Shown: positions 8,528-55,555 of the stretch, in pieces
Position numbering within the stretch: position 1 is the first letter of the stretch
Layout: each line of letters starts with the position of its first letter
Assembly: GCF_000002985.6 (NCBI RefSeq)
Contig: NC_003281.10
Span: 62,001-126,000, forward strand
Reading direction: 5' to 3'
Origin: Caenorhabditis elegans
Taxonomy: Eukaryota; Nematoda; Chromadorea; Rhabditida; Rhabditidae
DNA length: 64,000 bases
The notes under the pieces: generated by a model
Databases searched by the model: none
What the model saw: only the letters and a program-made list of their open reading frames with translations
What the model was told of the DNA's origin: nothing
Position numbers and translations under genes: made by a program

Positions 8528-11500
8528 TTAGCGATACATAGAAGCCGATGTACATGGCTGTTGATCATCGTCGTCCATCAGATCGGCTTCTTCCTCCGGT
8601 AACATCATATGAACCTCCTCCTCGTGGTGTACAATTTCCGATGGACCCGTGTGTGGTAGAAGTGACGGTGGCGGTGATGACGTGGCAGGATCGTGCTGAA
8701 ATTTTAAATTTTTGGCTTAAATTATAGGATTTCTTGGCTTTTTAGGTGGTAAAATTCAAATTTCTCGCTAAAGTTGGCTCTAAATACGTAAAAATTCAAA
8801 ATTTTTTGGATTACTGTAGCCTCGAAAGTACGTAAACACCAAATCTGACGACAAGTTGCAGAAAATTGGAATTTTAGAGTTTTTTACATGAAAACTCAAG
8901 TTTCCAGCCATTTTTCACTACAAAAACTGATTTTTCTGCAATTTGTCGTCAGATTCGGTGTTTGCGTACTTTTGGGGCTACAGTAACCCGGAAATTTCTC
9001 AATTTAAGCTGGAAAGCCGAAAAACCACCCGTGCCGGAAACCAAATTTTGCGTAGAAACTGAATTTATTGCTAAAGTCTTTAAAATTTAAACTTTAAAAT
9101 CTGAAATTTAAAAATTCTGAAAAAAATCGGCATTTTCAAACTGAAAATTACACATTACTGAATTCTAATCATCAAATTCGAATTCTTGGTCATTTTTTAC
9201 CCCGGAAACCCAATTTTTAAAACTTTTCTGCATTTTTGCGTCAGATTCAGTGTTCTGGGGTACGGTAGTCGGTGTTTGCGTACTTTCGGTGCTACAGTAA
9301 CCCAAAAATTTCGAAAAAAGAGTTACAGAGCCGGGAAAATAGGTTACCAGGAGTGAAATGTGGCGGGAAATTTAATTTTAACGGTAAAAATTCGAAAAAT
9401 TTTGAATTTCGTCTTGAAAAACTTCAATTTTCAAGGTTTTCCATAAAAACTAGACGCTCTACTCAATTTTTGACACAAAATTCGAGTTAACCGTCAATTT
9501 TTACCCCGAAAGTCCAATTTTTAGAGCTTAGCCATCAAAAATACGAAAAATGTGCATTTTTCCGTAGGGTGGTTCCCGGTGTTTGCGTACTTTCGGGGCT
9601 ACCGTAATCCAAAAATTTGAAAATTAGGCTAGATAGCCAGGAAAAAACAGTTTCTAGATGAACATTTTGCGGGGAATCCGATTTCGAGAGAAAACTATCG
9701 AAAAATCTTTATTAGTTCTGCTCAATTTTTGACACAAAATTCGAAATCCTTGTCATTTTTCACCCTGGGACCCCATTTTTCAGGGCTAAGCCATCGAAAA
9801 TACGAAAAATGTGCAATTTCTCGTAGAGTCTTCTTCGGTGTATGCGTACTTTCGGGGCTACCGTAACCCAAATTTTCTAAATTTTGAGCTGGTGGCCCGA
9901 GAAATACGTCTTAGGTGTGAAATTTTGCAGGGAAATTGATTTTGAACATGCTTTTTGCGTTAAAAGCTCAGAAATCGGCCAAAAATGGGATTTTTTTTCT
10001 GGGATTTTCCAATTTTCGCTCCAGAATTTCGTTTTTTTTTTCTACCTCTTGCTCGTGGAGCTCATCATCATACTCTCCACTCCACTGTTCTTCCTCTTCC
10101 TCCTGTTTCGCCTGTCTCTGATGCTGTAAAATCGTCGTCATTTGATGGCCAGGAGGCCCATCGTAATCCTCGGGCGGCGTCGGAGCAGTCGGCGTCGAGC
10201 TCATCGCCATTTTCGCCTGCCTAGGCACATAGACAATCGGCCGCTGCTCTTTTTTCCGGCCATCGTAGGCGATTGCGTGGGCGGCGATGGCCCGCATCAC
10301 CTCTGGCGGACAGTCTCGGAGCTCGGCGAATCGGTCTCGCCGCTTACGGCTCCGAACTACTGAGCGGGTGGTTTCACGCCGCGGTGGTGGTGGGAGCACT
10401 GATTCTTGGTCCAATTCTTGTATCTGAAAATTAAAATATTTCAAAAAAAAAAAAAAAAATTTTTTTTTTAATTTTTCTCAGAAAATTTCAAAATTTTCCG
10501 AAAAATTGTTTTTCTCGTCATTTTTCAAATTTTTAACCAAAAAATTCCAATTCTCCGTCAAATTTTACCTCGAAAACCTATTTTCTAGAGCATTCGGAGC
10601 GTTTCCGCAAAATTGCGTAAAATCCGGTTAATTGGGGGCGGTGTTTGCGTACTTCTGGGGCTACAGTAACCCGAAAAGTTCAAAATTTGAGCTAAAAGGG
10701 ACATAAATATGGTTCCGGGGGTCAAATTTCGCGGGGAATTCGAATTTGAGCAAAATTTGACCCAAATTTTTTTTTGACCCAACTTTTAACGATGAAAAAT
10801 GAGATTTTTCTCGAAAACCAGCTGTGCTACTGAATTCCTGTGTGCCAAAATCGAATTCCTCACCATTTTTTACTCCGAAACTTCAGTTTTCAGTGTTTAG
10901 CCATAAAAAATACGGAAAATGTGCATTTTCGCGTAGGGTCATTGTGTTTGCGGACTTTTGGGGCTACAGTAACCCAAAAATTCAAAATATTGAGCTAGAG
11001 AGCCCAACTAAAAGCGATTTAGAGCCAAATTTCGCGGGAAATCCTATTTTGATACTAATTTTTGGAAAATTTTAGTTTTAACCTGTGAAATTCCTGAAAA
11101 ATCTTGGAATTTTCAAGTTTTCTATGAAATCTCAAAATTATAGCGCATTTTGACTCGAAATTCGAGTTCCCTGTCACTTTTTACCCCGAAAATCTCGATT
11201 TTAAGAGCATTTCCGCATTTTTGCGTAAGATCGGGTGTTTTGTGTGGTGTTTGCGTACTTTTGGGGCTACAGTAACCCGAAAATTCCAAAATTGAGTTAA
11301 AGAGCGCAAAAAAATGGTTCCAGGGGCCAAATTTCGCAGGGAATTCAATTTTGAGCCCAGTTTTTCGAAAAACATGCAGTAGGGGGTACTGTAATTAGTG
11401 TTTGCGTATTTTTGGGGATACAGTAACCCGAAAAATTCAAAAATAGGCTTAAACAGGCTCCCCAGGGATCAAATTTCGCGGGGAATTCAAAATTTTAGGT

Positions 11501-14500
11501 TAAAATCGTCGAATTTTTCAATTTTTCGCCCTAAAAAAGCTCTCAGGCTCCAAATTTCGTGAAAAAACCGATTTTTCCAGCTAATCTCCTCTACCTTTCT
11601 CGTAGGAATTCGAATTCTTCGCGACGGGCTCCGCGGCAGCTCATGGCTTATTACAGGCATCGGATCGAGCTTCTGATAGAGCCGTTGCCGGTGCGGCGGG
11701 ATTTTTGCCGGAATTTCGTGTTGTTCGTGCTGATCATCGACCATTTCCACATCGACAAGATCCTCCTGCTCCTCCTCATCGTCGTGTTCCACAATTTCTG
11801 ATGGTCCTTCTGCTGTGGCTTCTGGATCCTCGTCGAGATGATGATGATGGTGGTGATGATGGTCCTGAAGCTCGCCGAGCTCCTCGGTTTGGTGGCTCAG
11901 GTGCTCGGGTTTCTGGAAATTTTGAGCATTTTTTGGGTTTTTTTTTCGGTTAAAATGGGGAAAATCCACATTTTTTGAATAAAAATTCGAAAAAATCAGT
12001 GAAAAATCGATATTTTCAGCTTTTTTCCCACCAAAACGCTGTTGTAGAGATTTTCTGCATGTTTGCGTAAAATCGTGTGTTTTAAGGCGGTGTTTGCGTA
12101 CTTTTGACGCTACAGTAACCGGAAATTTCGATTTTTCACTGATTTTTTAGGAATTTTAAAGCAAAAATATTGATTTTTCACCAAAAATTTCCACATTTTC
12201 AAAGAAAAAATCAATTTTTCGGATTATTAGGCGAAAATATCGCTTTTTCTCTATTTTTTTTTCAATTTTAATTCGAAAAAAACAATTTTTGATCAGTTTT
12301 TCTCGAAATTATCGATTTTTTTTTCAAATTTTCATCTGAAAAAATCAATTTTTCACTGATTATTCAGTTTACAAGCGGCGGTAAAATTGATTTTCGTTCA
12401 GTTTTTCATGAGATTTTCAGTTTTTTAGTCTAAAAATCTCGATTTTCCGTACTTTTGGCGATACAGTAACCCGAAATTTCGATTTCACACAATTTTTTGA
12501 TGGAAATATCGATTTTTCACTGATTTTTAGGAATTTTTATGCAAAAAATATCGATTTTTCACCGAAAATTTCAACATTTTTTAAAGAAAAAGTCGATTTT
12601 CACAATTTTGATCGGAAAAATATCGATTTTTCGAATTTTTACAAAAAACTGATTTAAAAAAATCAATTTTTGATCAGTTTTTCTCAAAAAATGCCAGTTT
12701 TTGGGTTTGAAATTAATTTTTTTCGAATTTTTCGAATTTTCAACTAAAAATATCGATTTTTCACGACATTTTCCTCATTTTCCATGAAAATTCGTTGAAA
12801 AAGAGCACCTGCTGCTCGTGTAAATGTTGCTGAAGCTCTTCCTCTTCCAACCGCATATTATGGTGCATTTTATGCTCCTCTTCCAGATCATAATGTCCAC
12901 CATATTCAGGATAATCTTCATAAGTCTCGTAGATCACTTCTTCGTCTGGAAGCTCCGAGCCTTGAAGCTCGCTGGCGCCGTCAATTTCGTGGCCGATGAT
13001 TTCCTCTTCCACGACAACCTCGTCCCCGTCGTCGTCGTACATTAGAATTTGCGGGTTTTTGAACGGATTTTCGTGCTGAAAAATTGGAAATTTGGGGGGT
13101 TTCAAGGGTATTTTTCATGGTTTTTGCACTGAAAATTGAAATTTTTCGTAAAATTTCCAAAATTTTCAGTCAAAAATCGGGTTTTTGGTGGTGTTTTCAG
13201 GCAAAAAAAGCTACAACTCGCGGGGGTTTCAGCCAAAATTTGTCGTTTTTGCCAAAAATATTGATTTTTGTGTATGTTTAAAGCAAATTTCAGCCACAAT
13301 TCTCACACTTTTTCGTGAATTTTCAGATTTTCCGACCAAAATTCGAAATTTTTTGAGGTTTTCACACACAAAAAGCTGAAAATCGCCGATTTTTTGACCG
13401 AAATTTGGAATTTTTGTGCACTTTTCTCAATTTTTAAAGGAATCTTCCAATTTTTCCGTTTTCAATCAATTTTAAGCTATTTTTGGTCAATTTTCGGCCA
13501 TCTTTTATAATTTGCAGCTAAAATCCCAATTTTCACAGTCAAAATTGCGAAAAAACTTAAAAATAGTTGAAAAAATCGTCTTCCCCTCCATTTTTTACCT
13601 TGGAAATCCAATTTTTAGGCGTTTTCTGCAACTTTGCGTAAGATTCGGTGTTCGCGTACTTCCAAAGCTACAGTACTCCTAGGAATTTCAAAATTGAGCG
13701 GAAAGCGCATACTAAAAGCCATTTAGAGCCAAATTTTGGGCTGAATTCGAATTTGATGAAAATTTGAGCTGAAATTCTATTTTTCAGAAAATTTTAAGCC
13801 AATTTCGATCATTTTTGTCCGTTTTTAGCCAATTTTCAGCCGTTTTCAACCGAATTTTCACCAATTTTCAGCTAAAATCCCAATTTTCACAGTCAAAATT
13901 GCGAAAAAACTTAAAAATAGTTCAAAAATCGTCTTCCCCTTCATTTTTTACCCCGGAAAACCCATTTTTTAAAGCTTTTCTGCAATTTTGCGTAAGATTC
14001 GGTGTTTGCGTACTTCCGAGGCTACAGTACTCCTAGGAATTTCAAAATTGAGCTGGAAACGCGTACTAAAAGCCATTTAGAGCAAAATTTTGCGGTGAAT
14101 TTGAATTTGACAAAAATTTGAGCTGAAATTCTATTTTTCAGAAAATTTTAAGCCAATTTCGATCATTTGTGTCCGTTTTTAGCCAATTTTCAGCCGTTTT
14201 CAACCGAATTTTCACCAATTTTCAGCTAAAATCTGCAATTTCCCAGTTAAATTTGCGAAAAAACTTAAAAATAGTTCAAAAATCGACTTCCCCTCCATTT
14301 TTTACTTTGGAAATCCAATTTTTAGACTTTTTCTGCAATTTTGCGTAAGATTCGGTGTTTGCGTACTTCTAAAGCTACAGTACTCCTAGGAATTTCAAAA
14401 TTGAGCGGGAAACGCGTACTAAAAGCCATTTAGAGCAAAATTTTGCGGTGAATATGAATTTGACAAAAATTTGAGCTGAAATTCTATTTTTCAGCTAATT

Positions 14501-17500
14501 TAAGTCAAATCTAAGCAATTTTACTCAATTTTTTAACGTTTTTCAGCCAATTTTCGGCCATTTTCAGCCAAAATTCTACTTTTCAGAAAATTTTAAGCCA
14601 ATTTCGGTCATTTTTGTCTGTTTTTAGCCAATTTTTGGCCGTTTTCAACCGATTTTCATCCAAAATTTCTACCTCAGCTTCCTCGCCCTCCTCATCCTCT
14701 ACCGTAGTATAGAAGAATTTATGCGGGGGGTCCAAGGGTCTCAAAGTGTAGGTTTGTGTATTGGTAATTGCATTAAAATCCTCAATTCGCTGACAAATAT
14801 GCGAAAACCATTGATCTACACGTGGCGCGTCGTGATCCATATTCGCCGGATTCAAATACCAATCCCTTAGAATTCTGAAAGATGCTCCGAGAGTCGGATG
14901 GGCGTGGCTTGTCAGTGTGGTCCGATGAAGGGGACCCCAACGCTTAAAATATTCCATGTCGGAGAGCTGAGCGTCGAAAAATTCGGCTAAACCATCGTAG
15001 CCGCACTCGAAAAACGCCTCGAAAAGTTCCACGATTGTGTAATAGAGTTGATGAGCATCTTCGACGCGGAGCATACGGCGGAGAGCTGAAAAATTGGAGA
15101 TTTTGGGTGAAAATTTGGAAAAAAATGGCTTAAAAATCGATTTTTACATGGGAAAATCTAAGAAGAAAATAGCTAAAAACCCCGAGATTTTCAATGAAAA
15201 ATTCAAAATTTTGGGTGAAAATCGATGAAAATGGCTCAAAAATCGAGATTTTTTGCTCAAAAACTGGAAAAAAGATTCAACCGGATTTTCCGAGCTTTTC
15301 TGCATTTTTACGTAAGATCGGGTGTCTTGGGTGGTGTTTGCGTACTTTTGGCGCTACAGGAACCCGAAATTTCAAATTTTGAGCTAGAAAGCCCAATTAA
15401 AAGCTGTGTAGAGCCAAATTTCGTGGAGAATTCGATTTTGATATTTGTTTTTTGGCAAATTTCGATTTTAAAAACCGAAAATTCAGAAAAATCTCAAAAT
15501 TCTATTTTTTTCTCATAAAATCGTAAAATTTCAGCGAATTTTGATTTTCCCGCCACTTTTTAGCCAGGAAACTCCGATTTTCCGGGCTTTTCTGCATTTT
15601 TGCGTAAGATTGGGTGTCTTGGGTGGTGTTTGCGTACTTTTGGCGCTACAGTTACCCGAAATTTCTATTTTTACCGATTTTTTTGGAATTTTTTTTTCAA
15701 ATTCAGATATAAATCAGAGTTTTTGGGAAGAAATTTTGAATAAAAAAATTTTTTTTTTTGAAATAATTTTTTTTGAATAAAAATTTGAAAATTAATCGGA
15801 AAATTGATTCTTTAATGAAATTTTCACTTTCAAAGACAATCTCCAGTTCAAAATTGCATATTTAGCAACATTTCAAATTTTCCGGGTTACTGTAGCGCCG
15901 AAAGTACGCAAACACCGAAACTCACACAAAATTGCACAGATTTTCTGAAATTCCAAAGCTTCAAACCGAAATTTGTTCAGAGATAATTTGAAAATCGGTT
16001 TCTCCACGAGATTTGGCTCTAGACGCAGTTTAGTTCGGTTTTCTAGCTCAAAATTGAGAAATTTCGGGTTACTGTAGCGCCAAAAGTACGCAAACACTGC
16101 ATGGACACCGAATCTCACGCAAAAATGCAGAAAAGCTGTAAAAACTGATTTTCAGGAGTAAAAAGTGATGGGAAACTCGATTTTCTTGGTTAAAAATCTC
16201 AAAATCTTATTTTTTAGTCGAAAAATGCCGGTTTTTCACTCAAAATTAAGATTTTCGAGCCGAAAACCCGTACCAGTAACGATACAAAACACGTCAAATT
16301 CGTTTTTGACTAGTTCCTCCGTTTTCGCAGCCCAATAATCCATCAGAGTCCATTCGGAGATGAGAATCGTCACTTCCGACTCGGGATTATCCAAATCTGT
16401 GGGCCATAGGTCTTGGATAAGTTCCACCCAGAGTTGTGACGGGTCCACCATAAAAATTGTCGGCGGTCGAGGTTCTCTGAAAATGTTTTTGTTGAAAAAT
16501 TCGATTTTTCAGCAAATTTTGTTGAAAAACAGCCTGAAAACATGATTTTTTCGTACAAAAATGGTCCGATTTGTCACGTGTAGAGTGAAATTTCAGGATT
16601 TTTGGGTATGCTAAATAATTAGCAGACCAAAGTTGGGTCTGCTAAATAATTAGCAGACAAACGTTGGGTCTGCTAAATAATTAGCAGATTATATTTGGGT
16701 CTGCTAAATAATTAGCAGACCAACGTTGGGTCTGCTAAATAATTAGCAGACTATTTTTGGGTATGCTAAATATTTAGCAGACCAAAGTTTGGTCTGTTAA
16801 ATAATTAGCAGACCAACGTTGGGTCTGCTAAATATTTAGCAGACCATAGTTGGGTATGCTAAATAATTAGCAGACCAAAGTTGGGTCTGCTAAATAATTA
16901 GCAGACCAAAGTTGGGTATGCTAAATAATTAGCAGACCATTTTTGGGTATGCTAAATAATTAGCAGACCAAAGTTGGGTCTGCTAAATAATTAGCAGACC
17001 AAAGTTGGGTCTGCTAAATAATTAGCAGACCAAAGTTGGGTCTGCTAAATAATTAGCAGACAAACGTTGGGTCTGCTAAATAATTAGCAGATTATATTTG
17101 GGTCTGCTAAATAATTAGCAGACCAACGTTGGGTCTGCTAAATAATTAGCAGACTATTTTTGGGTATGCTAAATATTTAGCAGACCAAAGTTTGGTCTGT
17201 TAAATAATTAGCAGACCAACGTTGGGTCTGCTAAATATTTAGCAGACCATAGTTGGGTATGCTAAATAATTAGCAGACCAAAGTTGGGTCTGCTAAATAA
17301 TTAGCAGACCAAAGTTGGGTATGCTAAATAATTAGCAGACCATTTTGGGTATGCTAAATAATTAGCAGACCAAAGTTGGGTCTGCTAAATAATTAGCAGA
17401 CCAAAGTTGGGTCTGCTAAATAATTAGCAGACCAAAGTTGGGTCTGCTAAATAATTAGCAGACCAAAGTTGGGACTGCTAAATATTTAGCAGACCAAAGT

Positions 17501-20500
17501 TGGGTCTGCTAAATAATTAGCAGATTATATTTGGGTATGCTAAATAATTAGCAGACCAAAGTTGGGTCTGCTAAATAATTAGCAGACCAAAGTTGGGACT
17601 GCTAAATATTCAGCAGACCAACGTTGGGTCTGCTAAATAATTAGCAGATCATATTTGGGTATGCTAAATAATTAACTGACCACAGTTGGGTCTGCTAAAT
17701 AATTAGCAGACCATTTTTGGGTATGCTAAATAATTAGCAGACCAAAGTTGGGTCTGCTAAATATTTAGCAGACCATTTTTGTGTCTGCTAAATATTTAGC
17801 AGACCATTTTTGGGTATGCTAAATAATTAGCAGACCAAAGTTGGGTCTGCTAAATAATTAGCAGACCATAGCTGGGTCTGCTAAATAAAAAATTGTCAAT
17901 TTTTCGGTATTTTCCCAAGATTTTGTCTAGAAATTTCCAGATTTTCACTAAAAACAAGGCCTTACACAGCCTTCATTTGCCGCAAAATTGTGTGCGGAGC
18001 CCGTGAATTGTCCGTCGTCACGTAGATCATCGCACACTTTGGAATGTAATTCTCGTCGGTCACAATGACGCTGTACTGGAACAAATCCACTTCGCCAAAC
18101 TCCAGCGGGGACTGAAAATTTCAAGTTTTGGTGGTAATTTTAATCTGAAAATTTATCGAAATCTAAGCGAAATTTAGTCTTAAATAACTTTTAGATGGGC
18201 TCTCTCTAGCTTAATTGGAAAATTTCCGGATTACTGTAGCGCCAAAAGTACGCAAACACCGACTACAGTACCCAAATACATCAGATCTTACGTAAAATTG
18301 CAGAAACGCTCTGAAAATCGGGTTTCGGGGTAAAAAGTGACGGGGAATTCGAATTTTCAACTATTTTTTTAGTTATTTTAATCAAAAATATGCCGTTTTT
18401 TCACACTTTTGACACCAAAATCGAATTCCTCGTCATTTTTCCCCTCGAAACCGATTTTTAGAGCTTATCTGCATTTTTGCGTAAATTCAGGTGCATTGGG
18501 TGGTGTTTGCGTACTTTTGGGGATACAGTACCCCTTATTTTCAATTTTCGAGCTACAGAGCCCTGAAAACGGCTTTTCAGGGGCAAATTTCGCGGAAAAC
18601 TCAAATTTTCCCGTACCGAATCGATTGTAATTGTCCTTCCAGGCGCATATTTGCTCCACAACTTTTGCATCTCGTCGGACATGTAACCAAACGAAAATTG
18701 CTCCGGCGAATCGCCAAAATCGACGGAAAAATACGGATTTTGATAGGTTGAGGTGGAGGGAGCCTCGATGAATTCTCTGAGGGATTGGAATTGATTCGTG
18801 TGAAGGGGTTCCATCAGGATTACGGACCGCGGAGTGGTGTAATGATCCATTGTGAAGCCTTCGAATACTGAAAAATGGGGAAAATTTGGCTGGAAATCGT
18901 GAAAATTTGGCTTAAAATGTTGAAATTTTGGCTTAAAATGGTTCAAATTTGGCTTTAAATAGTGAAAATTTGGCTTAAAATGTTGAAAATTTGGCTTAAA
19001 ATGGTTCAAATTTGGCTTTAAATAGTGAAAAATCGGCTTGAAATGGTGAAATTTGGCTTGAAATGGTGAAAATTTGGCTTAAAATGTTGAAAATTTGGCT
19101 TAAAATGGTTCAAATTTGGCTTTAAATAGTGAAAAATCGGCTTTAAATAGTGAAAAATCGGCTTGAAATGGTGAAAATTTGGCTTGAAATGGTGAAAATT
19201 TGGCTTGAAATGGTGAAAATTTGGCTTTAAATAGTGAAAAATCGGCTTGAAATGTTGAAAATTTGGCTTAAAATGTTGAAAATTTGGCCAAAAATCATGA
19301 AAATTAGGCTAAAAACCAATTTTTTTTCCAATTTTTTACACAAAAATCGTCCAATTCCCAGTTTTTCACTAGATTTTTGGCTGAAATTCTTATTTTTCGG
19401 CAGTTTTTAGCTCTTTTCCAGTACCATTAAGCTTCTCGACAACGTCTAGAGCCATAAACTGAAAATCTCGTTGCTCTTTCCAGCTGAGCACTTCCGAATA
19501 TATTTGACGATCCATTGGAGCTGAAATTAGTGATTTTTAGGCTCGGAAGCTTGAATTTGGGCTTTTTTAGCTTAAAAACGGCTGAAAATGGCATTTTGCG
19601 AGTTTTTTAGGATTAAAAACCTCAAAAATAGGCGATTTTTGTCGATTTTTTAGCAAAAAAACCTTGGAAATAGGCGAATTTTGCCGATTTTTAGGCTAAA
19701 AAACCTTTAAAAATAGGCGATTTTTGCCGATTTTTTAGCAAAAAAACCTCGAAAATGTGCGATTTTTGCCGATTTTTAAGCTAAAAAACCTCAAAAACAT
19801 TGAAATTTCTACATGTCTGGGCTAAAAACCTCAAAAATGCCAAATTTTTTACCGAAAAAAGCCAAAAACCTACACATTCTGAGCAACGGAGTTCCGAAAC
19901 GATGGCCCGTGTGCTCCAGAGTGCCTTTCACGTGAATCGGGCCGTATTCCGAGTCCTCACGGACCTCCAAATGCACACAACAGTCATTTTTATTCCGAGT
20001 GAGCAGCTGTGGGTGTCGGCGTTTCAGAAAATTGTGCTTTTGGTAGATGTAGGCTCTGAAAATTCGAATTTTCGAGGATTTTTGGTGATTTGAAGCCATT
20101 TTTTCTGAAATTTTGGCACTTTTTACCCCAGAAACCCCATTTTTTAACGTTTTTGTGCAGTTTTGCGTAAGATCTGATGTTTTGGGGTACTGTAGACGGT
20201 GTTTGCGTACTTTTGGCGCTACCGTAACCAGGAAACTTTCAGATTTGAGTTACAAAAACGAATTAAACTCTTCCTAGAGCCAAATTTCGTGGGGAAACCG
20301 ATTTTCGAATTATTTCTGAACATTTTGTGTGAGATTCGGTGTTTGCGTACTTCTGGCGCTACAGTAACCCGGAAAATTTAAAATTTTTGTGCTTTTGGTA
20401 GATGTAGGCTCTGAAAAATCGATTTTTCTAGGATTTAAGGTGATTTTAGGCCATTTTTTCTGAAATTTTGGCACTTTTTACCCCAGAAACCCCATTTCCA

Positions 20501-23500
20501 ATGCTTTTTGTACAATTTTGCGTACGATCTGATGTTTTGGGGTACTGTAGTCGGTGTTTGCGTACTTTCGAAGCTACAGTAACCCGGAATGTTTCAAAGT
20601 TGAGCTACAAAAACGAATTAAACTTATTCTAGAGCCAAATTTCGTGGGGAAACCGATTTTCGAATTATTTCTGAATAAATTTTGCTTTTTGGAATTTCAG
20701 AAAATATGTTTTACATCGCCTTTTTAAGCTTCTGTGCGATTTTGCGTGAGATTCGGTGTTTGCGTACTTCTGGCTATACAGTAACCCGGAAAATTTGAAA
20801 TTTGTGTGCTTTTGGTCGATGTAGGCTCTGAAAATTCGAATTTTCGAGGATTTTAGGTGATTTTCTCCAAAAAAACCCAATTTTCAAAGCTTTTTCTGCA
20901 ATTTTGCGTAAGATCTGATGTATTGGGGTACTGTAGTCGGTGTTTGCGTACTTTCGAAGCTACAGTAACCCGGAATTTTTGTACATCGAGCTGGGGAGGC
21001 CAAATAAAAGCAATTTAGAGCTAAATTTTGCGCTGAAAGTCAATTTTCTCATTTTTGAGCCATTTTTCTCAAATTGTCAGCTTATTTCGGTTAATTTCCA
21101 CCGATTTCCTCGAATTTTGAGCCGTTTTCAGCCAAATTTCTACCTCGAATCCGTGGCGAGCTGCTCCCCACGTCCACCCACGCAATCGCAGTGTAGGACA
21201 TAGTTGTGAAGATCCTGCAGCTCAGGATCACTTCCAAATTCCGACCGTTCGAATGTGACACTGTAGACGCGTTCCATTTGTTGAAGCCAAGCCTGAAAAT
21301 TTGAGAATTTTGGGGTTTTTTAGGTGGAAAACTGAGAAAAATCTGAATTTTTTGGGGAAAAAATCGCAAAAATCGCCGATTTTCAACCTAAAAACCTCGA
21401 ATTTTCACATTTTTTGCCTAAAAACTCACCGAAAAATGGTGTTTATTGTCGAAACTTTGAGAAATCATAAGTGCCAAGCCGCCGTGAGTTATTGTGTGAT
21501 CAGCCAGCTGAGCGTACGTGTGGAAGGAGCTTTTGCAGTAGAAACACGACAAAACCGTCTGAAAAATTGGAATTTTGGACCATTTTAAGCCAATTTTGGA
21601 CCATTTTAAGCCAATTTTGGACCATTTTAAGCCAATTTTGGACCATTTTAAGCCAATTTTGGACCATTTTAAGCCAATTTTGGACCATTTTAAGCCAATT
21701 TTGGACCATTTTAAGCCAATTTTGGACCATTTTAAGCCAATTTTGGACCATTTTAAGCCAATTTTGGACCATTTTAAGCCAATTTTGGGCCATTTTAAGC
21801 CAATTTAGGACCATTTTAAGACAATTTAGGACCATTTTAAGACAATTTAGGACCATTTTAAGACAATTTAGATCATTTTAAGTCAATTTAGATCATTTTA
21901 AGTCAATTTAGATCATTTTAAGTCAATTTAGATCATTTTAAGTCAATTTAGATCATTTTAAGTCAATTTAGGACCATTTTAAGCCAATTTTGGATCATTT
22001 TAAGGCTATTTAGATCATTTTAAGGCTATTTAGATCATTTTAAGCCAATTTTGAACCATTTTAAGCCAATTTTGAACCATTTTAAGCCAATTTTGAACCA
22101 TTTTAAGCCAATTTTATTATTTTTCACGAATTTCAGTCGAATTTTCACGATTTTTTGCAATTTTTCAGCATTTTCATTCAAATTTCAGCCCGAAAAAGCC
22201 CGTACCATGACTCGATTATCATCGGGCCGCCACTCGGGATGAGCTTTTCGTAAATGTGTGCTTCTGGTCGACCGGGACCATCCCCGCCACTGACAAAGTG
22301 GAAAATGACAGTTGTATGTGCCATTTGAGTTGTATCCTGGAGCATTTCTCTTACGTTCAGCGTGCTCATTCGGGTGCACTTTTCGCATGTGTGAAGATCT
22401 GGAAATTTGGCGGTTTTTGGCTGAAAATTCAAGTTTTTCAGTAAAAATTCAGCTGGAACCATCTCAAAAACCATTTTTTTCACCTAAAAATGATGAAAAT
22501 CATCTTTTTTACACTAGAAAATAGTGGAAAAAAACGAAAAATTCAATGCCGACCAATCAGCGATGTGCAGGGGGCGTGGCCAACGTCGCTGATTGGTCGG
22601 AACGTTTTTGGCTCATTTTCAGCCAATTTTCGGGAATTTTGGTCCATTTTTCACCTTGAAGCCCGGAAATTTCCTCTCCAATTGCATCCTTTCACCTGAC
22701 AAGCGTATTGAGGCACATGCTCTTCCGGATTTACGTATTTTCCGTCTTTCGAGATTCTTTCCAGCAGGAATCTGTAAAAAATCGAGTTTTAAAGTGAAAA
22801 TTCGCAAAAAATTCGAAATTTTCGATTTTTTGACGGGACATTTGGTTAAAATTGCCATTTTCCTTCAATTTTCGACTAAAAATAGCAATTTTAGGTCATT
22901 TTTCACGATTTTAAGGTCGAATTTTGCCGAAAATCACGATTTTTCTAGTTAATCATAGATTTTTCCAGCACCTTGAAGGCATTTTCCATTCGGGGTGAAT
23001 CGCTTTCATATGATCCATACGAAGTGATCGATAGCCGCCTTTCCACAGACAATCCGGCATATAGCACTTATATTTTCCGTTGGCATCTCCAATGGTAAGT
23101 CTGTCCGGTAGACGATCGTTCGGGTACCGGCGGAATGCAGTTCGAGTCCGGTTTTGAACAAATTTCTGGAAAAACTGAAGGAATTAGCAGGTTTTTGAGG
23201 TGAAATTTGAGTTTTTCGCGGTTTTTTACGTATTTTTCGGGCTTTTCTGGGTTAAAATGTAATTACATAATTATTTAAATATTTTTAACAGATCATTTTT
23301 GGGTCTGCTAAATAATTAGCAGACCATTTTTGGGTCTGCTAAATAATTAGCAGACCATTTTTGGGTATGCTAAATAATTAGCAGACCATTTTTGGGTATG
23401 CTAAATAATTAGCAGACCATTTTTGGGTTTGCAAAATATTTAACAGACCAAAGTTGGGTATGCTAAATAATTAGCAGACCAAAGTTGGGTATGCTAAATA

Positions 23501-24377
23501 ATTAGCAGACCATTTTTGGGTATGCTAAATAATTAGCAGACCAAAGTTGGGTATGCTAAATAATTAGCAGACCAAAGTTGGGTATGCTAAATAATTAGCA
23601 GACCAAAGTTGGGTCTGCTAAATAATTAGCAGTCCAAAGTTGGGTCTGCTAAATATTTAGCAGACCATTTTTGGGTATGCTAAATATATATTCTCGTCCA
23701 TTTTCATCAGTTTTGGCTCAATTTTCACGAAAATTTTTCTCGAAATTTACAAATTTTCCTCGATTTACCGAATCCAACATAGGACTATCGTCATTTTCCT
23801 CGTCTTCCTCATGATCAATAACCACTTCTTGGCCGACAATCATGGAATTTCCGTCTAAATTCATGTCCGAGCCGCCCATCAGCTGATAATTGGCTCCACG
23901 GCGAACATAATCCCCAAGGGAAGTCTCTTCGTCAATAATTCCGAGTCCGTGAAGGCGAGAAGCTTCTTTATCGGTTCCTGGAAGCAAAAAATCGTTTTTT
24001 CACAGATTTTTTAAAAGATTTATTACTTATTGCCGAATCATCCACACATTCCACTATCGTTTTCGGACGTTTTCGACCGCCGAGAAGCTGTTTTGTGGTG
24101 ACTCGTTGCAGTGGAACCGGAGAATCTTCGTATTTTTTCGGTCGGCCCTGGAAAAAATTAAATTTTTTTTCGTTTTTCAATCAGAATCTTGAAATATCCG
24201 CCTTACCCTTGGTTTTTTATCATCTTCCTGACCTTCTGGCCGTGGATGTCTGTGTCTTTTGTGTGCACTGAGACTTCGATCGGATTTCCCGACGTATTCG
24301 CATAAATTGCACTGAAAATCGATATTTGTCGGCACATTCACCACGTCCACATCGTCCTGCTCATCGTTTTTCATCAT
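8528..24377 (-). CDS. attf-6: C2H2 zinc-finger / AT-hook protein with transposase-like core
   Basis: Predicted nuclear DNA-binding protein. Eighteen exons join without a frame break into 1,234 codons plus stop: 24377-24207, 24147-24027, 23977-23769, 23165-22972, 22771-22655, 22398-22206, 21558-21430, 21292-21144, 20055-19874, 19520-19425, 18867-18617, 18111-17966, 16476-16274, 15085-14673, 13075-12809, 11912-11595, 10423-10046, 8695-8528. C2H2 fingers start at C23, C201, C256, C301 and C340. AT-hooks are GRPKK at 58-62 and GGRKRP at 80-85. Residues 379-860 look like a MULE transposase: a C413/C453/H476/H479 zinc site resembling FLYWCH/WRKY-GCM, then TITIDS (D603) and FMVDPS (D664). The C-terminal third is acidic, with eight consecutive His and several E/D runs. 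A TTTTCAG acceptor 7 bases before the ATG supports the start. The symbol is recalled from synteny; the transposase relation is inference. Confidence 0.88.
13570..14490. repeat. three tandem copies of a ~355-bp intronic unit
   Basis: Within one intron of the 18-exon gene a 355-bp block repeats three times. The CGTACTTC core falls at about 13653, 14009 and 14363. Each unit contains one dispersed TTTGCGTAC module, with an unusual CTACAGTACTCCTAGGAATT in place of CTACAGTAACCC. Confidence 0.85.
16603..17888. repeat. 31-bp hairpin minisatellite, about 41 units
   Basis: Each 31-base unit contains the inverted arms GTCTGCTAA and TTAGCAGAC around ATAA, then a variable 9-base linker such as CAAAGTTGG or CATTTTTGG. 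The block starting near 16640 recurs 403 bases later (13 units) with the same order of linker variants, so a segment was itself duplicated. It lies wholly inside an intron of the 18-exon gene. Confidence 0.95.
18885..19315. repeat. ~20-bp minisatellite (AAATTTGGCTTAAAATGG)
   Basis: About 20 head-to-tail copies of a roughly 20-base unit with variants GGCTTGAAATGG and GGCTTTAAATAG fill the start of an intron of the 18-exon gene. Confidence 0.9.
19555..19800. repeat. ~42-bp intronic tandem repeat
   Basis: Five to six copies of a unit reading AAAAATAGGCGATTTTTGCC, then GATTTTTTAGCAAAAAAACC, lie between two exons of the 18-exon gene. Confidence 0.8.
21576..22112. repeat. 21-bp minisatellite (CCATTTTAAGCCAATTTTGGA)
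   Basis: About 25 copies of a 21-base unit (CCATTTTAAGCCAATTTTGG plus one base), with later copies changed to ATCATTTTAAGTCAATTTAG. Because 21 is a multiple of three, long open frames appear on both strands here; they are not genes. The array is in an intron of the 18-exon gene. Confidence 0.95.
23290..23689. repeat. 31-bp hairpin minisatellite, second array, about 13 units
   Basis: The same GCTAAATAATTAGCAGACCA unit as at 16603-17888 reappears in another intron of the same gene, about 13 units long. Nothing similar is seen outside this gene in the window. Confidence 0.95.
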
Positions 24378-44051: not shown

Positions 44052-44436
44052 CTATATCTTGTACACAGACAGAGCTGGAAACTCGTCAGTGTGGTCAATA
44101 GTGAAACATTTGAAATGAAAAAAATGAACAATCATTGCACTGGCAATCTTAGAATCCCAAAGTATAAATTCTTCTGCATTTCCCCATTGCTCCAAAAGGG
44201 TTATTCGTTCGAATTGGTCAATTGACACAATGAAAACCAATTCAATCTTTTTGAGCATTTTAGCATCTAACCATGAAAGAATCGTAAGGACTTCATCAAA
44301 ACCGAAATTCCAAAGTTCTATTTCTTTTACGTGAATACATTTTTCGGCTTTGAAAATCTTAATGAAAGTTGTAACAATGTCGCATCTATCATCCGTGTTG
44401 TTCCAAATTGTAATGTTCCGTGCGTGCTTCGATACT
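44052..44436 (-). pseudogene. 3' fragment of the F-box/FTH gene
   Basis: The last ~128 codons of the neighbouring FTH gene copied by the 772-bp duplication, ending in the same stop. It has no 5' part and runs directly into the second copy of the tRNA-like element, so it is not a gene by itself. Confidence 0.85.
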
Positions 44437-45208
44437 GATTGATTGAATTTTGAGGAGGCTTTAAATTGGGGAAGACGTACCCATATTTTGTATAAAATTG
44501 AGTATTTCTATTCGAATCCCGATTACTCACAAAAAACAAAAAAATTTATCACTTGGCAGAATTGAACCAACTACCAAAAGTCCTGCAGTCATACGCACTA
44601 ACCACACGGCCATGCGGGAGACACCTCAAACTGGGATGTAGGGAAGAAAATTTTCTGGAGGAAGTCGTCTTTCGATTCCGCTTTCTTCAATTACTACTAT
44701 TTGGGGAAGAAGTTCGAAAACCGTTTATCACTGATAAGTCAGCGGAAAACCTAATTTTTGAAAATTTTATTACAGCATTGTACTCATCATAAAATTCCCG
44801 AAAGGGAGACGTACATTTGAGGGCTATATCTTGTACACAGACAGAGCTGGAAACTCGTCAGTGTGGTCAATAGTGAAACATTTGAAATGAAAAAAATGAA
44901 CAATCATTGCACTGGCAATCTTAGAATCCCAAAGTATAAATTCTTCTGCATTTCCCCATTGCTCCAAAAGGGTTATTCGTTCGAATTGGTCAATTGACAC
45001 AATGAAAACCAATTCAATCTTTTTGAGCATTTTAGCATCTAACCATGAAAGAATCGTAAGGACTTCATCAAAACCGAAATTCCAAAGTTCTATTTCTTTT
45101 ACGTGAATACATTTTTCGGCTTTGAAAATCTTAATGAAAGTTGTAACAATGTCGCATCTATCATCCGTGTTGTTCCAAATTGTAATGTTCCGTGCGTGCT
45201 TCGATACT
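44437..45208. repeat. 772-bp tandem duplication, right copy
   Basis: Matches 43665-44436 throughout. Its right end lies inside the intact F-box gene at 45208, which marks the original gene copy. Confidence 0.95.
44553..44622 (-). pseudogene. tRNA-like box, copy 2
   Basis: Same A box, B box and downstream T runs as copy 1; part of the right copy of the 772-bp duplication. Confidence 0.55.
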
Positions 45209-45843
45209 ATCTTCAAATCCTTGAGCGCTCTATCCGCAAAGTCTTCTCTATCAATTAATTTTTCCTGTTCATTGTGGATCACATTCGAATTACCATTTGC
45301 AGCAGTAATATATCTGCTTGTAGTTCCACTCAAATTCATTTCGACTTCATCTTTCCTCAAGTACAAATCGATGCAATCAAAACGTAATCCAAATTTATCG
45401 ACAGCACTTCTCAAACTGCGACAGACTTTTCTCGCTCTTAGTCTGTAACACATAATGTTTAATGCAATATGAGCATTTCAGAAAACAAATGAATAGAATT
45501 GTGCCAAAGAATAATTATTTCTTAAACTCTACACAGCACATTCAATAATCAGTTTTACTTTTTACAGAGGAAATACGACACTTTACATGGCTCCTGCGTT
45601 GGGACACGCGGAATATAAATAACAAATCTAGGCCACAACACAATTTCTAGGTCATATTCATTTAACAAAACATTTATTCTAAATTCGTTTTTTTTCTCTA
45701 AAAGTTAAAGAAAACTGGAACAGAGAAAGTTCATAAAAATATTTTTTTCCGGTTTCCTATGCAATAAATGAAAGTTTTTTTGAAATATTTAAAGAAAAAA
45801 AACTATAATAACTTACAGATCCAAATGCTCCATTTTTTACAAC
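44824..45843 (-). CDS. F-box / FTH (DUF38) domain protein, possibly shortened
   Basis: Member of the large nematode F-box A family, whose proteins recruit substrates to SCF ubiquitin ligases. Exons 45843-45827 and 45442-44824 join in phase to give 211 aa. The start MEHLDLLRARKVCRSLR matches only the second half of an F-box, and a stop codon lies two codons upstream of this ATG, so the first F-box helix is missing or encoded by an exon I did not find. The FTH region holds HVKEIELWNFGFDEVLTILS, LEQWGNAEEF and a final HFFHFKCFTIDHTDEFPAL. Compared with the related gene at 47322-48185 it ends earlier, at the junction with the inserted tRNA-like element, so its last exon was probably lost. It may be a decaying gene. 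Confidence 0.65.
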
Positions 45844-47321
45844 ACTTGGTTAATGACCAGCAGAGGTATATTGAGGAAAGTTGGCAGTTCTCTGCTGTGT
45901 ATTCAAACCGATATCGGTCATTTTGAAAAGTTCCTGAATATCTAAATATATGATTGGAAAATTGAACCTGGAAAATAAGAAAATTCAATCTAACGAGGAG
46001 AAGTATTAAAAATGAAATGAAACCCAATTCTGGGAATCGAACACACAGAGACTGTAATATGACCGTCATTTACAGGAATCAAAAAAGTTGTTCGAAAGAA
46101 ATTTAAAAACGATTTGAAAATAGTGTTGACAGTTTGGAATACTTTATCAGTTTAACTTTATTTCTTTGTGTCTCTCAATTCTCTCCAATACTTTTTCTTA
46201 TCAGTTCACAACTGGCATGTGGATTTTGAGTTAATAAATATACATTTTTGCATAGATTTTACTATCTGTAATGATATTTCTCTAAATACATAAACCTTCT
46301 TTGAGCTCTACTTCTTGTATATCATTAACTTTTAACAATTAAGTGTATTTCTTACACTTTCAAATGATGCGACTAATTTTACTCCTGTATGAATAGAATG
46401 CATTTTTTTAATTTTCAATAATAAATGAACGAAAATTAAGAAAAAAAATACAAAAATCTCGGACAAAAAGATTTTTTTAAACTTACAATCAAACTGAAAG
46501 GGATCTTTTCATATTCAAAAGAAAACAGTATGAAAGCTCTTGAAGCTCATCACTTTTCCATTATTCTCTATTCTGCTTCCTTAGTTTTCACTTATCATTT
46601 TCCTTTTCACATTTTGCTATCGTTAACTTTTGCAGAGAAACACAAAAAACCTTGTGACTGCGGAATATATGTATTTCCAACATTAAAAATTAGGAATTTT
46701 TTTAATGAACTGTTATAACTGAATTAGATTTATTAATATTTCAAGAAGCTAGATAACCAGACAACAAAGTAAAAACAATTGGGTTTGATAAAAAATTATG
46801 CCAGTTTTCCATCAATCTTTTGTTCTATATCAGCCCACTCAATACAGTTAATGACGTCATTGCTTTTGCGTTTCGATTTTGGCCTGAAAACAAAATAAGA
46901 TTATTTGTAGGTTGAATTGAAAATGAACTCCTCAAAAAAAGTTGTATAGTAACTCTAAAGAGAAAAATCGTCAAAAGAAGAGTGCCTATATTTCTGAAAA
47001 TTGCTGGAACTTGGTTTTAGCGTCAAGGATTTGTAATAAATTGTGATCAGCCCAATCACATCAAAGTGTCATTGAAAAACACTGAAGACCATCTATAGTC
47101 TGAAAATCCTGGTAAGACACACACCAAAAGAGAAAAGTGACTGCCTTTGAAGTGTCTTTTGATTTATTCACAGTAATAGAACAAAAAACATACACGAGAA
47201 TTGGCTTTATTTATTTAAAAAAAAACAGAAGCAACATTAAAAATTACAAAATCGCGGAAAACAAATTTTTCAGACTGTTTCACATACAATCAAACTGACA
47301 GAATCAGATGGGAATGGATTT
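45844..47321. other. AT-rich DNA between two FTH genes
   Basis: No convincing gene. A minus-strand stretch near 46021-46080 contains GTGTTCGATTCCCAG, a B-box/T-loop-like word. Another near 46798-46885 reads like a short terminal exon (NDVINCIEWADIEQKIDGK then stop, preceded by an acceptor) but has no partner. Both are noted only. Confidence 0.4.
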
Positions 47322-48185
47322 TCACAATCTTCTCACATTCAATTGAAAATGATTTGAATTAAACTTCCAAAGCGAAATATCGAATGTGTCGTTACCATTT
47401 GGAAATTCAATCTTAAATACGTTTCCACCAGTGTAGTCCGGTTTGAATACTTTTGCAATTTCAATCGGATTTGACTTTGAATTTGCCAATTTTAAATCGC
47501 AACTTTGGAATGTACTTCTTCTTAAAAGATCCTGAAGAAAAATTAATTGAATGAAAAACAGGGTTATCTTACATCTCTCATTTGTATTGCAGCCTGTGCT
47601 GGAAATTCGTCAGTGTAGTCAACAGTGAAACATTTGAAATGAAAAAAATGAACAATCATTGTACTGGCAATCTTAGAACCATCAATTTTAACTACTTCTG
47701 CATTTTTCCATTGCTCCAATTGGGTTATACGTTCAAAACGGTCTATTGACTTCATTGACTCCATACATATTAATTTAATAGTTTTGAGCTCTTTAGCATC
47801 AAACCATGAAAGAATCGTAAGGACTTCATCAAAACCGAAAAACCAAAGTTCTATTTCTTTTACATGAATACATTTTTCGGCTTTGAAAATCTTAATGAAA
47901 GTTGTAACAATGTCGCATCTATTTCCCGAATAGTTCGAAATTACAATTTTCCCTGCGTGCTTCGATAATATCTTAAAATCCTTGGCCGCTTTTTCCACAA
48001 AGTTTTCTCCATCAATCAACTTTGTCTGTTCATTGTGAATTACAATCGAACTCGAACTGCCATTTGCTGCAGTATTAAATATCTCGACTTTATCTTTCCA
48101 CAAGCGTAACCTGATGCAATCAAAACGTAATCCAAATTTATCGACAGCAGTTCTCAAACTGCGACAGACTTTTCTCGCTCTCAGT
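47322..48185 (-). pseudogene. FTH (DUF38) gene truncated at its 5' end
   Basis: Exons 48185-47573 and 47531-47322 join in phase and encode about 275 residues ending NHFQLNVRRL, including the FTH block HVKEIELWFFGFDEV, LEQWKNAEVVK and a C-terminal piece (DLLRRSTFQSCDLKLAN) that the paralogue at 44824 lacks. The first complete residues, LRARKVCRSLRTAVDKFG, match the end of an F-box. The exon needs two bases from an upstream exon, as in the paralogue. The upstream intron is alignable to the paralogue as far as 48374, where the hairpin-ended element begins, and no F-box exon is present before it. The body is open, so inactivation is inferred from the missing 5' end only. Confidence 0.7.
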
Positions 48186-48572
48186 CTGTAATAAATAAAT
48201 CTTATTTGGGTGTGGCTATGAAGTTACTTTTTAGAAAATCTCCTCTATTGATATTTTAGCTTGGAATGCAAAATAAGCCTTTTTTGAAATCGGAATGAAT
48301 AGAATTGTGCCAAAGAACAAATATTTCTTAAATTCTGCGCAGCACATTTAATGTTTAATTGTACTTTTACAAAGGACTAGCGGGCCCTGCGGGCCCGCCA
48401 GTTGTAGGGGGTGTAAGGCGAGTCCCCTTGCCGGGCGTAGGTTCTCGGCTTCGCCTCGAACCTGTTAGAGGGTTTGTGAAAATTTCAGTAGGTCAATGGG
48501 AGTCTTCTTAATTTTTGAGTTCGGTTTGACCAAAAACAGATGCACCCGATGAATCAGTTAAAGCTGAGTTTT

Positions 48573-53277: not shown

Positions 53278-54494
53278 CCTTACACCTCTCCAACATTCGC
53301 ATCGTACAACCACCTTCCGAAGAAGATTTGGCGCTATCTACTCTCTCCCGCCAGCTCGGGCTCATGCTCCACGCCGAACGATGTCAGGTGAGTTACTGGA
53401 AAGACTCACTGGGGAACTTAGTCATTTGGCATGAGGGATACGTGATAGGCTGAGCTGAAAACCTAGAAGTTCTGTATCTCTGCGAGCTAGCATGGAATTG
53501 GAAAAAATCAGCTGAGGACTTTGTATCAGGGTTGTAGTGCAACTTGCTTAAGGAGTTCTAGAGCGTGTGCGGGGGCCGAGATGGAGGCTTTAGCGTCCCA
53601 GTTGTGATCTTGACTCCCTATAGAGCGCCTTGGGCTCCTGGCCGCGCGCTCCTAAAGCCCAATGCTTCCTAATCCAGGTACAAAGTCTGCTGAGAAGCAT
53701 GCATTTTCCAATTATAGTCAGCAAAGGTATCAAGCTTGAAAAGTGTTCAGATATCTCGGATCTTCTAAAGACTCGATTCTCTAGTTTGATTTTGCAGATC
53801 GCTGAGCAATGTCCTGTTCCGCAGTGCTCCACGATGAAGGAGGTGATCGGGCATATGATGACGTGTTGGAATGGGTTTCAGTGTCCCTGTAAGTTCAGAA
53901 GAGCCCCCCCCCCCCCCCCCCCAATAGTAACCTTATCCCTTCAATTTCAGCCGAACACTGCACTTCGTCTCGTATGGTCATCCACCATTGGACACGCTGT
54001 ACCAATGCGGAATGCCCGATTTGTGGAGCACACAGGACTGCACAGAATATGAACGCGTTGAGCACAATTCCTATCGTCAAGGATCCCGAGCCAAGACCTC
54101 CAGGAACCTCACAACCGTGGCACAGTGAAGTTCCGAAAACCGATAGAGAGGCAGTTATTGAGAGAATCTCCAAACACATCATGCTCCATCCGCAAAGATT
54201 CGAGCCAATTTGGAAGATAAAGGAGGACGCGAGGGCTGCTGAGCTTCAGATTTTTGAAGCAGCGGGGAGTAGGGATGAGTACTACCGCATGGTTGAGGAG
54301 CGAGCTCCCCGCGAGCAGGACAAAGCTCCTGAGGGCCCTGGCCAGGAGGCACAAAAAGAGGAGAAGGGGGCTGGAGGTAGACTTTTAGTCAGGTGTAATT
54401 TAAGTAATATGGAAGATTTTCAGAGGAAGATCCTGATGAGGTGTTTGATCATATGGAAGGCACTTCCAAGGACTTCCAGGGCTCCACAGACTGA
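53278..54494 (+). CDS. TAZ1-KIX protein, CBP/p300-related (paralogue 1, 5' end not found)
   Basis: Carries the two protein-binding modules of the CBP/p300 coactivator without bromodomain or acetyltransferase. Exons 53278-53387, 53678-53888, 53951-54376 and 54424-54494 stay open over about 272 codons. TAZ1 parts: SRQLGLMLHAERCQ, CPVPQCSTMKEVIGHMMTC and EHCTSSRMVIHHWTRC with CPIC. KIX parts: WHSEVPKTDREAVIERI, AAELQIFEAAGSRDEYYRM. The end MEGTSKDFQGSTD mirrors the neighbour's. Exon 1 needs one base from an upstream exon that I could not find. Within exon 2, 24 codons (53726-53797) extend the TAZ1 loop beyond the paralogue and end in TTTTGCAG like a retained intron; splicing there would shift frame. 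So this copy may be decaying. Confidence 0.78.
53904..53922. repeat. 19-base C homopolymer
   Basis: A run of 19 C (G19 on the minus strand) inside the 62-bp intron of the first TAZ1-KIX gene. Confidence 0.9.
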
Positions 54495-55555
54495 TGATCG
54501 CCAGCTTCACAGAATCTCAAATTGCAATACTTCTCATTTTAAGGACTTCTTTACAATGACTTTTTCTTATGTTAATTGACATTTTTATATCATTGCTCAA
54601 AAAAAGTATAGAAAACCAGTAGAATAAAAAAACAAAAAAAAATTTTGTTCAGAACTGGGTGAAGGGCTACTTGAAACTTCAGTATTTGGAAAAAAGTAAA
54701 AAATTCTGAAAGAACCTTTTCAGTAGATTCTTAGTCGGCTTCAGCATCACAGCTTTGGTCCCTTTGCACCACAATTGCCCCCATGGCCTTGCGGGGAATC
54801 TAGGAGGTACGGGACCCAGGAGGTACGGGCCCCCACAGGTATGGTCCTCACAGGAACGGGCCCACATGTACGGGACCTAAGAGGTACGGGTCCCTACACG
54901 AGCTCCACAGACATGGTCCTTTCGGGTACGGGGTCCACAGGAACGAGAACCACAGATATGGCCCAAAAAGTACGGCCTCACATCTACTGCCCCTACAGCT
55001 ACAGGCTTCCGAAGATTTAGCCCCACACGTACGGGCCCCACAGCTTCGGGCCCACAGCTTCAAGCCCCTAATAAGCTATGGTCCCTTCCAACACAGACAA
55101 AGCTCTTGGGCTCGCGGTCCTTATCATTCTGCTCCAACACGCCATGCGTGGGCCAGCTCCACATTATCACCCGTCATTCAAAACGGTTCCAGATACTTTG
55201 TCCAAAAACTCGTTCAAAATTGCGATACATATCACGCAACACACTTTTTATGGGAAAATGTGTGATTGAGAAACACAAGCCGGTGCCGGGGGGGTCTCCC
55301 GCTCTGTGTCTCTGAGACTCCTATACATTTACTGTGTATATTGAATAAAATCAATGTATGTGTGTCCAATTTTGCGTGGGCTTGGTACAGCTCATTCATA
55401 GCGTGACACTGGTTCCAGATACTTTGCCAATTGGTGTATTTAAAGAAGTGTGCCAAATTATTTCATTCATTTCCTTAAATTTTCTTTTAAAATTTGAAAT
55501 TCGTTGCGTTTTCAGCATCTCCTGGTTCTACTCCAACTTTTGACCCATTCTAGAA
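54495..55555. other. DNA between the two TAZ1-KIX genes, with degenerate minisatellite
   Basis: From about 54795 to 55075 a degenerate unit of roughly 17-22 bases recurs, built on GGTACGGGACC, CCACAGGTACGGGCCC and CACATGTACGGGACC variants. The remainder has no exon. An AATAAA at about 55343 is far from the upstream stop, so its use is uncertain. Confidence 0.65.

Follow-up and report, generated by a model that had tools for sequence, protein, structure and literature searches.

DNA-binding proteins derived from MULE transposases are well known in plants, and from animals they have been recorded piecemeal. The plant transcription factors FHY3 and FAR1 are transposase-derived regulators of MULE origin (PMC6000157, PMC13306707), the FLYWCH proteins of Caenorhabditis elegans carry a zinc-binding domain that is said to come from a Mutator transposase (PMC10027918), and MULE transposons have already been reported in Caenorhabditis (PMC10015627). 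Here we analyzed a gene on the minus strand of a 64,000-nucleotide stretch of the C. elegans genome (NC_003281.10, positions 62,001 to 126,000; hereafter the window, whose own numbering is used below). Its product combines C2H2 fingers and an AT-hook with a zinc module and a core region that can be compared with MULE transposases encoded elsewhere in the same genome. We consider it fairly likely that this is a diverged, single-copy gene descended from a MULE transposase, which would have kept the DNA-binding front of its ancestor while the core is probably dead. In the titles and abstract openings of the literature searched, mainly open access, we found no description of this locus or of a C2H2-FAR1-MULE gene of C. 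elegans.

The window protein differs from FHY3/FAR1 in showing no match to PF03101 (FAR1) or PF10551 (MULE) and in possessing C2H2 fingers and an AT-hook. It differs from the FLYWCH proteins in that their profile, PF04500, does not match it; in the C. elegans genome PF04500 was found at three places above the cut-off (8 matches at expect values, E, up to 10), none of which is the window gene, and FLYWCH membership was rejected on this ground. The ZSWIM1/ZSWIM3 family (PF21056) has an RNase H-like core akin to the cores of the worm relatives described below (20.3-26.9 bits against a cut-off of 27.2), whereas the window protein has no PF21056 match and no visible Cys-rich end, its 376-residue C-terminal tail containing only 2 cysteines and 25% Asp plus Glu. 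PF21056 gave two matches in the genome (best E 0.057), neither above the cut-off, and PF10551 gave none at E up to 10, presumably because the genome search runs exon by exon.

The gene runs from 24377 to 8528 on the minus strand, and its spliced frame consists of 18 exons with 1,234 codons and a stop codon. The splice sites were picked by reading the DNA, and the gene model is built from sequence alone. All 17 introns are of the GT-AG type and preserve the frame. The content of guanine plus cytosine (GC) is 49.6% in the exons (3,705 bases) and 33.6% in the introns (12,145 bases), and by codon position in the exons it is 0.60/0.37/0.52; this contrast and this pattern indicate a real coding gene, and we rejected a chance frame on the same grounds. 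An earlier note on this DNA, made from the letters and their open reading frames (ORFs), had given the right number of codons but had described the frame as continuous and placed the whole of it at 14673..24377, where only exons 1-14 (residues 1-858) lie; residues 859-1234 are encoded outside that span, at 13075-8528. The frame is intact and the gene is single copy: a tblastn search of the whole genome with residues 379-858 returned 7 matches, none of which lay outside the exons of the gene itself. The features by exon are as follows.

24207..24377, minus strand: exon 1, residues 1-57; start codon, C2H2 finger 1 (C23/C26/H39 and H42 or H44), first half of the AT-hook
24027..24147, minus strand: exon 2, residues 58-97; second half of the AT-hook KPRGRPKK, weak hook GRKRP at residue 81
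23769..23977, minus strand: exon 3, residues 98-167; acidic linker
22972..23165, minus strand: exon 4; C2H2 finger 2 from C201, of the C-x4-C-x-WKG type
22655..22771, minus strand: exon 5; C2H2 finger 3 as far as its first half, from C256, of the C-x4-C-x-WRG type
22206..22398, minus strand: exon 6; remaining half of finger 3, followed by C2H2 finger 4 from C301
21430..21558, minus strand: exon 7; C2H2 finger 5 from C340, F371; the transposase-associated zinc module begins
21144..21292, minus strand: exon 8; zinc module with W380, presumed ligand C413 and G420
19874..20055, minus strand: exon 9; zinc module with presumed ligands C453, H476 and H479, and G478
19425..19520, minus strand: exon 10, residues 489-520; linker after the zinc module
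18617..18867, minus strand: exon 11; pre-core region, then the first strand of the core, where D603 aligns with catalytic acid 1
17966..18111, minus strand: exon 12, residues 605-652; middle of the MULE-like core
16274..16476, minus strand: exon 13; part of the core containing D664, which aligns with catalytic acid 2, and ISEWT in place of the relatives' C-x-WH
14673..15085, minus strand: exon 14; post-core region, where G787 (or, with lower likelihood, E822) takes the position of catalytic acid 3
12809..13075, minus strand: exon 15, residues 859-947; acidic tail
11595..11912, minus strand: exon 16, residues 948-1053; acidic, His-rich tail
10046..10423, minus strand: exon 17, residues 1054-1179; tail with a basic patch
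8528..8695, minus strand: exon 18, residues 1180-1234; end of the acidic tail, stop codon

The residues on which the earlier note had built its proposal of a MULE-like transposase, namely C413, C453, H476-x2-H479, D603 in TITIDS and D664 in FMVDPS, are all found at the quoted numbers in the spliced frame. Its five C2H2 fingers in the first 360 residues also held: a regular expression finds five, starting at residues 23, 201, 256, 301 and 340. The two AT-hooks fared unevenly, as KPRGRPKK (residues 55-62), which spans the junction of exons 1 and 2, scores 16.7 bits with Pfam AT_hook, just below the cut-off of 17.4, and GRKRP is only weakly hook-like.

Two segments, HTGH...LLRM and PPTIFMVDPS...ISEW, resemble animal MULE proteins, and we took this as a lead only. 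A provisional MULE consensus (in Pfam, 52.2 bits with MULE and 40.9 bits with ZSWIM1-3 RNase H-like) served merely as a probe, and all homology tests were built on the genomic relatives. At E up to 10 the probe hit seven places of the genome, with 12 matches in all, and a second search with three of the loci brought the relatives to 11, at II:1.93, III:2.97, IV:0.77, IV:2.90, IV:15.52, V:8.30, V:14.05, V:19.77, X:0.14, II:7.868 and III:8.779 megabases (Mb); a match at II:10.66 Mb (E 0.02) was rejected as a chance similarity rich in Arg and Ser. Three of the 11 have the full zinc module and core: L042 (IV:2896000-2902500), L043 (IV:15.515-15.520 Mb) and L044 (II:1.930-1.936 Mb). L045 (III:2964500-2971500) yielded a core fragment, L047 the core start only, and the others have the zinc module or parts of it. 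After their exons were joined, the cores of L042, L044 and L043 scored 32.6, 32.8 and 33.2 bits on PF10551 (cut-off 27.6), and 26.9, 22.7 and 20.3 bits on PF21056. These three loci resemble the window gene in having a C2H2 finger, an F...WL segment, the C-C-H-H module and the MULE core in the same order, but they differ in their C-x-WH motif, their clear third Glu (FAES/SSES) and their Cys-rich ends, none of which is recognisable in the window gene. We read the Cys-rich ends as SWIM-like from their CxC...CxH pattern, and Pfam SWIM did not recognise them in the pieces tested.

L042 and L045 have the hallmarks of transposons. Both carry 61-base-pair (bp) terminal inverted repeats (96.7% alike in L042, 95.1% in L045), and a scan over offsets up to 6 bases and lengths of 8-11 detected perfect flanking duplications of 10-11 bp at L042 and 10 bp at L045. 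The one at L045 counts for less, being purine-rich. For MULE groups, a published account gives target duplications of 8-11 bp (PMC6446971). The two loci share five matching stretches of 239-1,055 bp that are 95.4-98.8% identical, suggesting that they moved fairly recently. A partial Turmoil-1 element, given at IV:2900974-2901153 of an older assembly (PMC2572040), lies within or near L042. Inverted ends of this kind were absent from the fetched stretches of L043 and L044, and a 20-base piece of the L042/L045 terminal repeat, the only family's repeat sought, was not found in the window with up to 3 mismatches. Terminal repeats like those of L042 and L045, which is a copy of L042, are not recognisable in the window gene, and it ends in the acidic tail instead. 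Among the other loci, a zinc-module fragment occurs twice on chromosome V (14.045 and 14.049 Mb, the first in L051) in opposite orientation and with equal scores, and L047 on chromosome IV matches the L051 copy over 1,186 bp with 99.2% identity.

Two relatives look more like genes. L046 (II:7864500-7871000, minus strand), the closest to the window protein by sequence, and L053 (III:8776500-8782500, minus strand), which we retained for its zinc module only, showed no recognisable MULE core in the fetched DNA, and L046 also has acidic stretches nearby; both loci may be further co-opted relatives. The module of L046 gave a sub-threshold FAR1 match (19.5 bits, E 0.0017; cut-off 28.1), which was absent from the other four modules scanned (L042, L047, L048, L049), so that 'FAR1-like' is a weak label.

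The zinc module of the window protein is homologous to that of these relatives. We searched a set of 3,244 sequences, comprising the spliced protein, 1,243 window ORFs (its own exons included) and 2,000 shuffles. The profile made from six relatives ranked the spliced protein first (23.6 bits, E 9.3e-6) and the exon-9 ORF second (E 0.0013), the best shuffle reaching 11.3 bits, and with eight relatives the window protein scored 28.5 bits (E 3.1e-7). A blastp comparison of L046 with the whole protein gave E 1e-9 over residues 306-479. In pairwise blastp, where each E-value refers to a single subject with the low-complexity filter off, the values were 4.6e-11 for L046, 2.9e-6 for L049 (V:8.300 Mb), 2.3e-4 for L053, 5.2e-4 for L048, 0.001 for L044 and 0.004 for L043. 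When the C2H2 finger part was removed from the profile, the exon-9 ORF ranked first (E 2.7e-4, or 0.0087 without L046) and the spliced protein second (E 0.0016, or 0.011 without L046), and end-to-end scores without this part had z values of 8.7 and 6.8, reached by none of 1,000 shuffles. Seven relatives have 16 invariant columns in common; 13 of these are conserved in the window protein, and all 8 presumed zinc ligands are among them. The earlier note had assigned the site to the FLYWCH/WRKY-GCM type; it was right about a transposase zinc module, which is, however, the FAR1-like module of the worm elements and not FLYWCH proper.

The finger at residue 340 is part of this module in all eight relatives profiled, and further C2H2 fingers stand upstream of the module in several of them, as judged by eye. 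Part of the finger array would thus have been inherited from the transposase, and at least some fingers of the window protein probably came with it. Fingers 2-4 of the window protein share the C-x4-C-x-W-[RK]-G form with L046. The module's own finger is C-x2-C in the window protein, L046 and L053, and C-x4-C in L042, L043, L044, L047, L048 and L049; the short finger is thus common to the three loci that resemble host genes, which hints at a common ancestry of these three and is a suggestion only.

The core is probably homologous to MULE cores as well, but very diverged. A full-length profile (seven relatives, three of them with the full core) aligned collinearly with residues 340-744 of the window protein in a single match (32.8 bits, E 6.3e-9), which pairs D603 and D664 with the first and second catalytic Asp. 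In an end-to-end alignment, made with our own, uncalibrated aligner and gap costs, the core scored 17.7 and 19.7 bits with z values of 5.5 and 5.6, and none of 1,000 shuffles came as high. Nor did any of 96 decoy segments, cut from 72 long ORFs of E. coli and thus bacterial rather than worm, reach its score (maxima -1.6 and 8.5 bits) or z value (5.0 for the query, maxima 3.4 and 4.5). The assignment of the core rests on this collinearity and the end-to-end alignment; no local match of the core by itself was significant.

The earlier note had called the third acid unclear and the enzyme probably dead. The C-x-WH of the relatives is replaced in the window protein by ISEWT (residues 692-696), with S693 and T696 at the Cys and His positions. 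A gapped MAFFT alignment sets E822 against the catalytic Glu. Placed without gaps, the last 36 columns of the profile fit best on residues 763-798, which brings Gly787 to that position (6.9 bits; next best 2.1, E822 placement -1.6). With a shorter segment the margin disappears, the same placement scoring 2.9 bits, tied with a tail position, against 1.8 for that of E822. The third acid most likely became Gly787, with Glu822 being less likely, and a loss of catalysis is likely on this alignment evidence, which favours the note's view short of demonstrating the loss.

A number of results weigh against descent of the whole protein from a transposase. The earlier note had itself named a profile search blank for MULE and FLYWCH as a refuting result, and this is what a direct search of Pfam with residues 379-858 gave: at E up to 10 there was no MULE, FLYWCH or FAR1 match, the sole match being a sub-threshold Death_Lrrd1 (E 0.038). 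Residues 599-713 alone likewise matched nothing in Pfam at E up to 10, PF10551 included, and a PDB search found no relative (best E 0.23). As for the zinc module, pairwise blastp was not significant with L047 (E 0.069) and L042 (E 15). Without L046, the profile gave the window protein an E of only 0.053 (five relatives) or 0.04 (six), although it still ranked first, as it also did at E 4.8e-4 when L046 was left out and L053 taken in (seven relatives). A tree made without L053 joined the window protein and L046 with 98/98 support, but the window branch is so extreme (length 8.79) that this placement cannot be trusted, and the tree program gives a warning about joins of this sort. As for the core, the full-length profile exceeds the six-relative zinc profile by 9 bits and the eight-relative one by 4, the latter figure meaning that most of its significance is owed to the zinc module. 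Core profiles alone reached 4.7-5.7 bits in HMMER, not significant as shuffles went up to 7.2-7.4, and hhalign gave P 0.015-0.034 with a probability of 1.5-3%. After residue 545, only 20 of the 78 columns invariant in the three full-length relatives are kept, one of them being E822 in the gapped alignment. The transposase ancestry put forward in the earlier note is thus supported through the zinc module and the PF10551-matching cores of the genomic relatives, not through a direct profile match, and in favour of its MULE core there are the two aligned aspartates of a collinear match, the core alone not being significant locally.

The poor local scores of the core could mean that the transposase origin is limited to the C2H2 finger and the zinc module (residues ~338-490), and that the protein after residue 545 is unrelated or arose de novo, its Asp motifs being there by chance. 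The relatives at II:7.868 and III:8.779 Mb, with their module and no recognisable core in the fetched DNA, would agree with such a limited origin. We nevertheless regard it as rather unlikely, because in the alignment the core follows the zinc module directly and in the expected order, its two aspartates falling in register, and because its end-to-end scores lie above those of every shuffle and every decoy segment. If instead the gene were a decaying transposon copy, a pseudogene-to-be and not a co-opted host gene, this would suit a lineage that holds real transposons with terminal repeats, as well as the tandem arrays in the introns of the window gene. But stops are expected in an old neutral copy, and here 1,234 codons stay open over 18 exons with canonical splice sites and a strong contrast in composition between exons and introns; moreover, there is no close copy, the divergence is extreme, the window contains no L042/L045 terminal repeat and all presumed zinc ligands are kept, which makes decay improbable.

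The protein could also still be an enzyme in which D603, D664 and E822 form an RNase H-type DDE triad for cutting or joining host DNA, given that the first two acids are kept and that the gapped alignment sets E822 opposite the catalytic Glu. We think this very improbable, since the best ungapped placement favours Gly787, even though its margin vanishes with the shorter segment, since the C-x-x-H residues have become S693 and T696, and since the core columns have mostly changed. Were it true, the protein would be a domesticated MULE-derived protein steered to chosen sites by five fingers, an AT-hook and a FAR1-like module.

The explanation that we prefer, a co-opted MULE transposase gene with a probably dead core, would run as follows. 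The ancestor would have been a worm MULE transposase with C2H2 fingers, a FAR1-like C-C-H-H module, an RNase H-type core and a Cys-rich, SWIM-like C-terminus, and the copy in the window would have become a single-copy host gene. It would have kept the five C2H2 fingers, the AT-hook and the zinc module, and catalytic aspartates 1 and 2 would survive within a core that has diverged strongly. The Cys-rich end and the core's C-x-x-H motif would have been lost, as would probably the third acid; the 376-residue acidic tail would be carried in addition. We infer that the fingers, the AT-hook and the zinc module would bind chromosomal DNA in the nucleus, and that the dead core may serve as a structural or dimerisation scaffold. 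The acidic tail might recruit other proteins, by analogy with transposase-derived regulators of the FHY3/FAR1 type, which would give the protein a regulatory role.

Outside the worm genome, the window domain had no match among the viral contigs and plasmids searched. A DNA pattern for the peptide WHVDRAW was found in 6 stretches of viral contigs, all of which were read as chance frames. The MULE consensus used as a probe gave one unconfirmed stretch in viral contigs and 2 records in phages (best E 1), and none of the stretches found with the family alignment of the relatives, 77 in viral contigs and 47 in genome contigs, was confirmed.

Several introns of the gene contain extended tandem repeats. 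A 31-bp palindromic unit is present in 41.5 tandem copies in intron 12 (16602-17888) and in 13 copies in intron 3 (23285-23686), and the 25 longest of 293 inverted repeats listed all lie within these 31-bp arrays. There are also 21-bp units in intron 6 (26.3 copies, 21571-22115) and intron 10 (21.2 copies, 18872-19315), and a 354-bp unit repeated 2.8 times with 91% matches in intron 14 (13509-14508). Neighbouring ORFs include PEPCK at 1298-2293, ankyrin and kinase ORFs at 28-32 kilobases, and tandem, much alike F-box/FTH-type ORFs on the minus strand at 44055-48223, where one ORF tested scored 100 bits for FTH and the others were assigned by eye. An ORF at 53893-54573 has KIX and TAZ matches and fits C29F9.5, which is described as an EP300 orthologue (PMC6540470). 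T17H7.1, an early guess at the name of the window gene, was dropped.

The same genome appears to hold a putative ancestor lineage, with its terminal repeats and target duplications, together with one very diverged, single-copy descendant, and beside the latter stand two further gene-like loci with the zinc module, L046 and L053. If our reading is right, the origin of this protein escapes a standard scan with family profiles, as happened in our own searches, and the gene illustrates how strongly a co-opted transposase can change around zinc ligands that stay fixed. The window gene would then offer a candidate regulator that can be tested in a widely used laboratory animal.

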